Source: Clostridia bacterium
GTDB taxonomy: Bacteria > CBDUZB01 > JAGLHV01
NCBI GenBank assembly: GCA_030595925.1
Contig: JAUVLC010000039.1
Coordinates: 1 to 20,877, forward strand
Direction: 5' to 3'
DNA length: 20,877 bases
Position numbers and translations under genes: made by a program. Below, in pieces: positions 16,578 to 19,138 of this stretch (the first letter of the stretch is position 1; every line of letters begins with the position of its first letter). The notes below the pieces were generated by a model that was given only the letters and a program-made list of their open reading frames with translations, ran no database searches and was not told the DNA's origin.

Positions 16578-17921
16578 TTATTTTTTAGGAATATATTTAC
16601 CCGTTTCTTCCGTAGCTATCGCTCCGGTTACAATGTGTGGAGTCAAAAACACTACTAAATCCGTCTTGGTCTTCTGTTTACTTGTACTTCTAAAAAAATA
16701 TCCCAGAAGAGGAATATCTCCCAAAAGAGGAACTTTATTTCTTGTATCCAATTTTTTATCCTCTATCAATCCGGCAATAACTATCGTCACCCCATCCTTA
16801 ACCAAAACGGTTGTTTCCGTCTCTGACGTGCGTACTATCGGAATGCTATTCCCTTCGCTGGTGATAATCTCACGATCTACCGAACTTACCTCCGGTTTAA
16901 TCTTCATTCTGATAAAATTATCCGTACTAATAGTGGGTGTTACAAAAAGTTTTACCCCTACATCGACAAAGGTTACTTCTTCGGCAGTAGTTATTACCCC
17001 GCTCCCTGAGGTAGTGGTGGTTGTAGTCACATAGGCTTCCTTGGTACCTACTAAGATTCTTGCTTCCTGGTTGTTAATTACTGTAATGCGTGGAGTAGAA
17101 AGAAGGTCTGTTGTCCCTACTGTCTGTAAAACCTTAATTAAAGCAGTATAGTCATTAGCATCCAATGTTCCTATACCAAATGTAGTTCCAAAAGACGATT
17201 CCCCTAAAATATTAAAATCTCCTTTGATTTTACCTCCTACCTTATGATTATTAATGTCAGAAAATACATATTCCCAATCAATCCCCATTTTAAATTCTTT
17301 ATTAAGAATTACCTGAATAATCTTTGCCTCTATCAAAACCTGTCTATCCCGTTTATCAATCTCCCCAATAACCTTCTCCATCCTTTCTATCACTTCCGGT
17401 AAATCAACAAGAATAAGTGAGTTGGCTCTTTCATCAACCAACACTTCACCCTTAATGCTTTTTATTTTAGTCAAAATGGTTACCACTTTAGTCCCATCCG
17501 CATAATTAAGATGAACCACTTTTACTTCTCTCTTATCGTTAAAACGTTTACCATATTTTTTTTCATAATCCTTGGCGGTTATGACTTTGATAATTCCCTC
17601 TTCAATTTCATAAGCCAGGTCGTTTGTTTCTAAAATTGCTTTCAATGCCCCCCAAATATTTACATCTTTGAGAAACAAACTTACCGACCCCCGCACCTTT
17701 TTACCGGCAACGATTTTTAATTTACTTTTTTGCGATAAGATTTTTAAAACATTAAGAATGTCCATACCCCGCAATTCCAGGGATATTTTCTTATCCTTAT
17801 TTTCCGTAGTCAATCGCATAACCTTCTGCTCATCTTTTGGCCGAACGAATTCCCGAGCCAAAACAATATTAACCTGGATTGCATAAGCTACAAACACTAA
17901 AACCAAAAATAATTTTCTCAT
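16578..17921 (-). CDS. gspD: Short outer-membrane secretin GspD/PilQ family
   Basis: This is a 447-residue secretin, the outer-membrane gate of the system. It has a signal peptide (1-22), then an STN-like N0 domain (about 43-120: ISLELRGMDILNVLKIL). A single N1-type KH-like domain follows (about 131-190: VKVVHLNYADGTKVVTIL, VDERANSLILVDLPEVIERM). The secretin barrel covers about 195-440, with STPRITVINNQEARI and the closing VPLLGDIPLLGYFF. Typical GspD proteins have N0-N3 and 600-700 residues, so two N domains and the C-terminal pilotin-binding tail are missing here. AAAGGAG precedes the ATG. No clear promoter is visible in front; the upstream gap contains an inserted repeat element. Confidence 0.88.
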   Translation of the reverse strand: MRKLFLVLVFVAYAIQVNIVLAREFVRPKDEQKVMRLTTENKDKKISLELRGMDILNVLKILSQKSKLKIVAGKKVRGSVSLFLKDVNIWGALKAILETNDLAYEIEEGIIKVITAKDYEKKYGKRFNDKREVKVVHLNYADGTKVVTILTKIKSIKGEVLVDERANSLILVDLPEVIERMEKVIGEIDKRDRQVLIEAKIIQVILNKEFKMGIDWEYVFSDINNHKVGGKIKGDFNILGESSFGTTFGIGTLDANDYTALIKVLQTVGTTDLLSTPRITVINNQEARILVGTKEAYVTTTTTTSGSGVITTAEEVTFVDVGVKLFVTPTISTDNFIRMKIKPEVSSVDREIITSEGNSIPIVRTSETETTVLVKDGVTIVIAGLIEDKKLDTRNKVPLLGDIPLLGYFFRSTSKQKTKTDLVVFLTPHIVTGAIATEETGKYIPKK

Positions 17922-18060
17922 ATTTAATTTCTCCTTTGCTTAAGGGGTATTGTCAAAAGCATTTGACATTTAGTTTATAATTTGTATTCTCGTCATCCTC
18001 CCCCCCTTTGAAAAAAAATAATATCTCCCCCTTTGAAAAAGGGGGTTGGGGGGATTTTAT

Positions 18061-18315
18061 TTATATTCTTTCTTTTACTGCCAGATAAATCACTTCCATA
18101 ACAGAATCCAGTTCTTGCAAAACTTGTAGATTATTAAAACGCAAGACACATAATCCCTTGTTCTTCAAGTATATATCTCGTTGTGCATCTTTCTGTTCCT
18201 TATCTGATTCCATATGTTGTGATCCATCCACTTCTATTACAATCCTTGCTTTGTTTCCTCTCCCCTTGCGGGAGAGGATTAAGGTGAGGGGACAGTGAAA
18301 GTTTGTTTTTTGTCT
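18061..18315 (-). pseudogene. DUF559 (Vsr-like endonuclease) C-terminal remnant
   Basis: The minus-strand frame from 18315 to a TAA at 18061-18063 is open but has no suitable start codon. Its last ~65 residues match the DUF559 family in my reading: NKARIVIEVDGSQH, then DAQRDIYLKNKGLCVLRF, NNLQVLQELDSVMEVI and a Lys/Glu end. The family's N-terminal part (roughly 40-50 residues leading to the first catalytic strand) is gone. It is replaced by an in-frame stretch CPLTLILSRKGRG that is simply the translation of a hairpin repeat. This is a decayed passenger gene. The family assignment is from pattern memory. Confidence 0.7.
18257..18277. repeat. Palindromic repeat fused in frame to the DUF559 remnant
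   Basis: cctctccc (18257-18264) and gggagagg (18270-18277) form a perfect 8-bp stem with a 5-base loop. Next to it is the associated attaaggtgagggg tract to about 18291. On the minus strand it is translated as LTLILSRKGRG, a peptide of the kind that repeats of this class give when read through. Confidence 0.65.
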
Positions 18316-18481
18316 TTAACTTTGTGCCTGTCTTTTTCTTTTATCTAAATCCCCCTATCCCCCTTTTTCAAAGGGGGAAATTACTTTTCATATTTTTTCA
18401 TCTATTTTATCATTCCTGCAGAAGCAGAAATCTATTGCATTATAGATTCCGCATCAACAAAATGTATATTTTGCAAAACTC

Positions 18482-19138
18482 TTAAGGCATATTTATTCGT
18501 ATCTTTTCTCCTTTATAACTGACAATAACCGCATTATTTAAAATCTCCTCAATTTTAAAATCGTCAATAGAATCTCCCTGATGAAGAAAAAAAGTCTGTT
18601 TTTTACTACCGTCCTTGATAATTGCCTCCGGCCTGCCCTCATCAAAAACAATACCACTCAAAATTAAATTTTTGGTTAACTCTTTCAATGTAGGTTTTTT
18701 TTCTTCCTTTATTTTTTCTTTTATTTTTGGTTTTTGGGATTGATAAATTTTAAAAATACGCTTTCCCCTTATCCTTCGCATATAGAAAGAAAGTGAACGC
18801 CCTTTTTTATTTTCCAATATATTTTCATTTACTTTATTCATCAAAGTTCTTTCCGGGCCGGCATGACTAAGTAATGTTTGTCCGGGTAAAGAATAAATTA
18901 TTTTCACTCCATAAAACACTAAAAGAATTACCATTATAGAAAGGAATTGATTTATATATTTTAAAGGCCGCAAATGAAATTGTGTTTTTCTTTTTTTAAA
19001 AAAAGTTTTAATTCTCCAATAAACTGCCGTCAAAAAACCTTTAACCTTTAACCTTATGTGTGAAAAAGGCTTGTCTTTGTTTTTTTTCTTTCTAATTAAC
19101 CTTAACAATTTTTCTTCCGGAGTAAAGGTAGTTTTCAT
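18482..19138 (-). CDS. GspB/GspC-like inner-membrane secretion protein
   Basis: This is a 218-residue protein. It has a basic cytoplasmic tail (1-60), one membrane helix (about 62-82: INQFLSIMVILLVFYGVKII), and a Lys-rich periplasmic linker (about 105-150). The C-terminal beta domain (about 155-216) reads LILSGIVFDEGRPEAIIKDG, FFLHQGDSIDDFKIEEIL and AVIVSYKGEKIRI. This fold is shared by the GspC homology region, PilP and GspB, which link the inner-membrane platform to the secretin. Position before gspD argues for GspC; direct coupling to an ExeA/GspA ATPase (ATGA overlap at 19135-19138) argues for GspB. No PDZ domain follows the beta domain. I cannot decide between the two names from sequence alone. 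Confidence 0.75.
   Translation of the reverse strand: MKTTFTPEEKLLRLIRKKKNKDKPFSHIRLKVKGFLTAVYWRIKTFFKKRKTQFHLRPLKYINQFLSIMVILLVFYGVKIIYSLPGQTLLSHAGPERTLMNKVNENILENKKGRSLSFYMRRIRGKRIFKIYQSQKPKIKEKIKEEKKPTLKELTKNLILSGIVFDEGRPEAIIKDGSKKQTFFLHQGDSIDDFKIEEILNNAVIVSYKGEKIRINMP

Follow-up and report, generated by a model that had tools for sequence, protein, structure and literature searches.

Among the gsp genes of a type II secretion operon from Clostridia bacterium (assembly GCA_030595925.1; the window analyzed here is a 20,877-nucleotide stretch, contig JAUVLC010000039.1), gspD, gspE and gspF are spaced by 15–45 bp, while 560 bp lie between the gspC-like stop codon (at 18482) and the gspD start (at 17921). 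What occupies this sole large gap in an otherwise packed run, and how did it get there? The initial annotation had proposed that exact 19-bp inverted repeats enclose a decayed Vsr-like DUF559 fragment in the gap, and each part of that description was borne out. The sequence CCCCCTTTGAAAAAGGGGG lies at 18027–18045 and its exact reverse complement at 18359–18377, each forming part of a longer 35-nt inverted arm (the two arms being 91% complementary), and the C-terminal half of PF04480 (profile positions 51–108) was found between them on the minus strand at 18076–18255, with scores of 50.2–53.4 bits versus a curated cut-off of 20.6. Allowing up to two mismatches, the 2.6-Mb genome contains 109 occurrences of a 20-nt version of the repeat end and none of a reversed control, and the inverted copies are therefore not a product of chance. 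Rfam and tRNA scans of the window returned no match.

The same annotation regarded the 19-bp repeats as the ends of an inserted unit, and this did not hold. The genome contains 24 DUF559 matches at approximately 19 places, and alignment of these copies indicated that conservation extends far outside the 19-bp repeats. Complete copies of this larger carrier are 509–657 bp in length, extending from GGTAGTGTCAAAA to TTTTGACA(T/A)TACC, and have 13-bp terminal repeats. Perfect 8-bp target duplications flank the copies in contigs C184 (TTAATAGA) and C163 (AAAACGAG), and matching 8-mers flank copies that are split between contigs (CGGAAATT for C90/C181; AGGAATGG for C110/C55). The duplications belong to the outer terminal repeats, which are the ends of the inserted unit, and the 19-bp repeats were ruled out as transposon ends. 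The window copy (Table 1) retains one carrier end, and since its target duplication recurs with seven of eight matching positions at the other side, the insertion most likely took place just behind the gspC-like stop codon. A clean empty site was sought in two genomes of the same genus, neither of which has an orthologous gspC-gspD junction; their gspD homologues are 47–49% identical and their loci are built differently.

Table 1. Features of the element between the gspC-like and gspD genes (window coordinates).
Feature	Position	Strand	Basis
Right-hand copy of the 8-bp target duplication (GCTTAAGG; minus strand CCTTAAGC)	17938..17945	.	Sequence; perfect 8-bp duplications at other copies
Carrier terminal inverted repeat, 3' end in gene orientation (TTTTGACAATACC)	17946..17958	-	Comparison of copies
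Carrier tail common to other copies; partial extra repeat at 18001-18015	17959..18022	-	Copy alignment
Triplex-type repeat, 3' side of DUF559	18023..18057	.	
DUF559 remnant, C-terminal half (profile 51-108)	18061..18255	-	Profile search
Second-type repeat (CCTCTCCCCTTGCGGGAGAGGATTAAGGTGAGGGG) at the DUF559 break	18257..18291	.	Same layout in C163 and C120; type occurs around other DUF559 genes
Filler in place of the DUF559 N-terminal half, partly common to C163 and C120	18292..18346	.	
Triplex-type repeat, 5' side of DUF559, inverted	18347..18381	.	
Carrier 5' segment common to other copies (GATGAAAAAATATGAAAAGTAATT)	18382..18402	-	
Eroded left carrier end; terminal repeat unrecognisable	18403..18479	.	
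Likely left-hand target duplication (TCTTAAGG, 7/8), spanning the gspC-like stop codon	18480..18487	.	Sequence; suggestive only

Within the eroded left end are TCATTCCTGCAGAAGCAGAAATC, which may derive from a different short dispersed repeat, and a 25-nt stretch that is 76% like the DUF559 3' end.

The N-terminal half of the window's DUF559 has been replaced by a block containing a second type of repeat. The same replacement is found in C163 and C120, and the defective form has therefore multiplied. Six other carrier copies have a frameshifting deletion in DUF559 in common. Movement of the carrier thus needs no working DUF559 in cis, and the carrier's transposase explains the multiplied frameshifted copies without the nuclease. 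A frameshifted DDE transposase gene adjoins one carrier terminal repeat (L143; contig C157) and matches Pfam rve_3, with only weak NCBIfam matches to IS3/IS481. The carrier is most likely a MITE moved in trans by a transposase resembling the IS6 family: it has the short terminal repeats and 8-bp target duplications of IS6-like MITEs and a transposase gene beside the same end, but differs from them in its cargo (DUF559 or RAYT), and the family of its partner transposase is uncertain. The same terminal repeat also bounds DUF559-free MITEs of 181–319 bp. We read the window element as a non-autonomous copy, now decayed, of an element with two layers: a MITE on the outside and a repeat-DUF559-repeat' unit on the inside.

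Several further observations concern the carrier. A 648-bp element with the same 13-bp terminal repeat (L136 866–1513; C129:14098–14745) contains a RAYT gene and REP-like sequences, so that the cargo of one carrier includes two repeat-linked enzymes with no relation to each other. In C53 (L002 1495–1824), carrier ends of the same kind surround a different DUF559 gene, which is YcjD-like and is accompanied by another G/C-run repeat (TCCCCTCCC...GGGAGGGG). Some flanking 8-mers match crosswise, with the right flank of the copy at C44:11455–12111 equal to the left flank of that at C46:2823–3467 (ATTTATGT), and the right flank of the latter equal to the left flank of that at C10:4595–5168 (ATAATAAG), which suggests either that copies have recombined with one another or that assembly joins fall within them. 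Many contigs break inside carrier elements (at the ends of C12, C13, C90, C110, C117, C144 and C181), and the number of DUF559 elements is therefore probably underestimated.

The inner repeats have a distinctive build. Each 35-nt arm comprises a hairpin (CCCCCTTT-GAA-AAAGGGGG), a short linker and a third G-run (GGGGGATTT); the consensus from 100 copies is TTTCCCCCTTTGAAAAAGGGGGTTAGGGGGATTT, with neither a GTAG nor a CGTC tag beside the palindrome. The computed hairpin folding energy is -8 to -9 kcal/mol, which is modest relative to shuffled sequences. The intrastrand triplex motif described by Holder et al. in 2015 consists of a pyrimidine arm, a loop, a purine arm, a short linker and a third purine strand (PMC4666352), and the repeats, with their own pyrimidine arm, purine arm and third purine strand, match that architecture in sequence. 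Such motifs (TM_ECO, PIT elements) were reported in 23 copies in E. coli K-12 and in more than 260 genomes, with inverted pairs and variation between strains; they are associated with variable E. coli loci and linked to genome instability, and the 2015 survey found no mobility activity nearby (PMC4666352). The likeness extends to the arm, loop and third-strand build, the inverted pairs and the many genomes. The described motifs have no mobility gene, whereas the repeats here are tied to DUF559, and the window's main family is of a C5T3 type, unlike the CCCTCTCCC of the triplex motifs, of which the repeat at the DUF559 break is a single copy.

The nuclease assignment was examined by comparing a predicted DUF559 structure (pLDDT 89) with solved ones. 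The closest was 3hrl, a Neisseria DUF559 protein (Z 16.0), followed by the catalytic domain of the homing endonuclease I-Bth0305I (3r3p; Z 12.7) and by Vsr (1cw0; Z 10.8). As modeled, DUF559 has the fold of the Vsr-like PD-(D/E)XK / EDxHD nucleases. Vsr is a mismatch-repair nickase and I-Bth0305I is intron-encoded; DUF559 has its fold in common with both but is approximately 20% identical and, here, boxed by repeats. Residues D51, E62 and D77 are invariant in the DUF559 alignment, which suggests DNA cleavage, and an earlier study assigned YcjD to the PD-(D/E)XK superfamily (PMC1189080). In database profiles the DUF559-locus proteins matched PF04480 and, weakly, MTES_1575; matches of sequence to enterotoxin B chains in the PDB were noise (E 0.03 or worse). 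Between pairs of close homologues dN/dS is 0.06–0.21, and the gene is therefore under purifying selection; the value for the two intact copies in the window genome is 0.45.

Whether the repeats accompany DUF559 beyond this genome was addressed with 80 loci from many phyla (14 phylum-level labels), chosen by DUF559 protein sequence alone, 79 of which have usable flanks. The repeat lies on both sides of the gene in 51 of the 79 loci and on at least one side in 70, versus 0 and 2, respectively, of 171 control ORFs in the same loci. (A mismatched-flank control is not a null, because the repeat is common to the loci, and the control-ORF comparison was used instead.) The repeat is found at a median of 21 bp before the start of the matched DUF559 region and 13.5 bp after its end, and a tally over 110 loci gave an inward orientation on 142 sides and an outward one on 15. 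Within the window genome all nine inward repeat pairs closer than 700 bp enclose DUF559. In other DUF559 subfamilies the gene is enclosed by repeats that differ in sequence but have the same build, for example CCCTCTCCC...GGGAGAGGG-TTG-GGGTGAGGGG, and the repeat type (A or B) switches once on the protein tree, in which only six rows are of type B. The repeat is thus both scattered and enriched around DUF559, in the genome and across phyla, contrary to the scatter without enrichment that would have refuted the initial annotation, and the DUF559-linked repeat family that the initial annotation had suspected is therefore real; we regard the association and the cognate pairing of protein and repeat as close to certain. 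The pairing is broad and is unreported in the papers that we searched; the literature search returned no report of a DUF559-repeat link, although most subscription journals lay outside it, which makes it weak evidence of novelty.

The repeats are also found away from the gene. The exact repeat core is present in 32 of 40 genomes with a DUF559 relative, in up to 64 copies, while the reversed control is present in none, and many copies form inverted pairs at a fixed spacing (approximately 63 bp in genome G070 and 69 bp in G084). Among 201 genomes of one order the repeat occurs in 21 of the 23 that have a close DUF559 relative (E < 1e-30) versus 49 of the 178 others (p 3.5e-9, with genomes treated as independent of shared ancestry). 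In the repeat-bearing genomes that have no close DUF559, the gene may have been lost or may be missing through incompleteness; otherwise these genomes count as evidence against the model. A sister species in Geomonas, with flanks 89–91% identical, is without the whole DUF559 unit, and E. coli strains differ in whether a repeat pair lies between hrpB and mrcB and between lldD and trmL, a difference that either gain or loss could produce. Neither of these comparisons gave an exact empty site in which a cut could be positioned, nor was excision, nicking or transposition seen. For the repeat on its own, neither an exact junction nor a target duplication was resolved, and the fetched parts of the window genome gave no convincing paralogous empty site for a solo repeat.

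The DUF559 gene occupies a single locus in E. coli and in Azospirillum, and is therefore seldom mobile itself; a search for recent movement on plasmids covered 40 records and again placed the Azospirillum gene at one locus. The E. coli K-12 gene is ycjD (L321 1206–1421), where triplex motifs are confined to the 3' side: motif number 9 of the 2015 survey (1,351,204–1,351,239) lies approximately 170 bp past the 3' end, and a degenerate copy is found at the stop codon. Strains without ycjD belong to other phylogroups and have the eef efflux operon at that position (PMC12817139), and the locus was set aside as an empty-site case that is not clean.

The explanation that we consider best overall, with a probability of roughly 0.7, is a two-layer element with a nuclease-linked inner module. 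The outer MITE layer would account for an insertion directly behind the gspC-like stop codon and for the multiple copies in the window genome, and the inner layer is a cross-phylum unit in which a Vsr-fold nuclease gene is closely boxed by inward copies of its own G/C-run, triplex-type repeat. In the mechanism that we consider most likely, the repeat would fold into a hairpin or triplex where DNA is single-stranded, as in replication; the nuclease would recognize this folded form and nick there, and host repair would then copy the repeat to new sites. We infer that the nuclease cuts its repeat, that cutting spreads the repeat and that single-stranded folding is the trigger, and we lean towards such nuclease-driven dispersal. 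Weighing against it are the single-locus genes of E. coli and Azospirillum, the one-sided repeats of ycjD, the 49 repeat-bearing genomes without a close DUF559 relative and the multiplication of frameshifted copies. The nuclease would thereby do for its repeat what RAYT transposases are believed to do for REP sequences. In REP/RAYT systems (REPtrons, REPINs/BIMEs), too, a small gene is flanked by inverted palindromic repeats that are also scattered singly and in pairs. RAYTs, however, are HUH/Y1 tyrosine transposases whose REPs bear GTAG tags (PMC3733652), whereas DUF559 is a predicted Vsr-fold nuclease and its repeat is a C-run hairpin with a third G-run. Since both the enzyme and the tag differ, the DUF559 unit would work like REP/RAYT without being a member, and the best reading, by analogy, is a partnership of the RAYT/REP kind in which an unrelated nuclease stands in for the RAYT.

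There are competing explanations. The inner module could itself be a complete small transposon, in which DUF559 cuts both repeats and moves the whole unit of approximately 430 bp; the recurrence of the compact repeat-DUF559-repeat' arrangement in many phyla, its absence from the sister Geomonas species and its many copies in the window genome would all agree with this. We nevertheless consider it unlikely, given that those copies are accounted for by the outer terminal repeats and their 8-bp duplications, that the gene keeps to a single position in E. coli and in Azospirillum, and that no target duplication was seen around the inner unit. A housekeeping or policing nuclease acting on hairpins or triplexes, with the repeats as operator, terminator or other regulatory sites that spread by some other route, would agree with the purifying selection, with repeats only 10–25 bp from the gene and with the genomes that have repeats but no close DUF559. 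It fits poorly with repeats that are inverted on both sides, that also occur, scattered and polymorphic, far away from it, and whose type tracks the protein subfamily, and we view it as improbable.

Two readings deny any functional link. In one, the repeats are merely prone to recombination, as their association with variable E. coli loci (PMC4666352) might suggest, and DUF559 genes were trapped between them as passengers. This is already disfavoured and very improbable: not one of the control genes in the same loci is boxed, the close inward pairs all enclose DUF559 alone, and different subfamilies carry matching repeat types. In the other, which is confined to the window, an ordinary MITE insertion picked up DUF559 as chance cargo of no wider meaning. 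The carrier does have other cargo, including RAYT, but the inner module recurs across phyla in loci selected independently of the carrier, and as a full account this reading is refuted and scarcely credible.

The two-layer reading with its nuclease-linked module has consequences beyond this locus, where the window element is a decayed relic that leads to the broader pairing. For DUF559, whose function is unknown, the pairing suggests a role, and it makes the family a first candidate enzyme for common triplex-type repeats whose origin was unexplained, a question that is thereby made testable in laboratory E. coli. We slightly favor the view that DUF559 proteins, as small Vsr-fold nucleases each paired with its own triplex-type repeat, form a second, non-HUH class of bacterial repeat-dispersing enzymes, and that they made and are still spreading the triplex repeats known from hundreds of genomes, E. 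coli among them (through ycjD). If true, enzymes of two unrelated types gave rise to repeat-dispersing systems.

In four sequences (L337, L338, L339 and L340) repeats are located inside coding sequences, among them type I restriction genes, and are translated in frame (as PPFEKGG and similar peptides).
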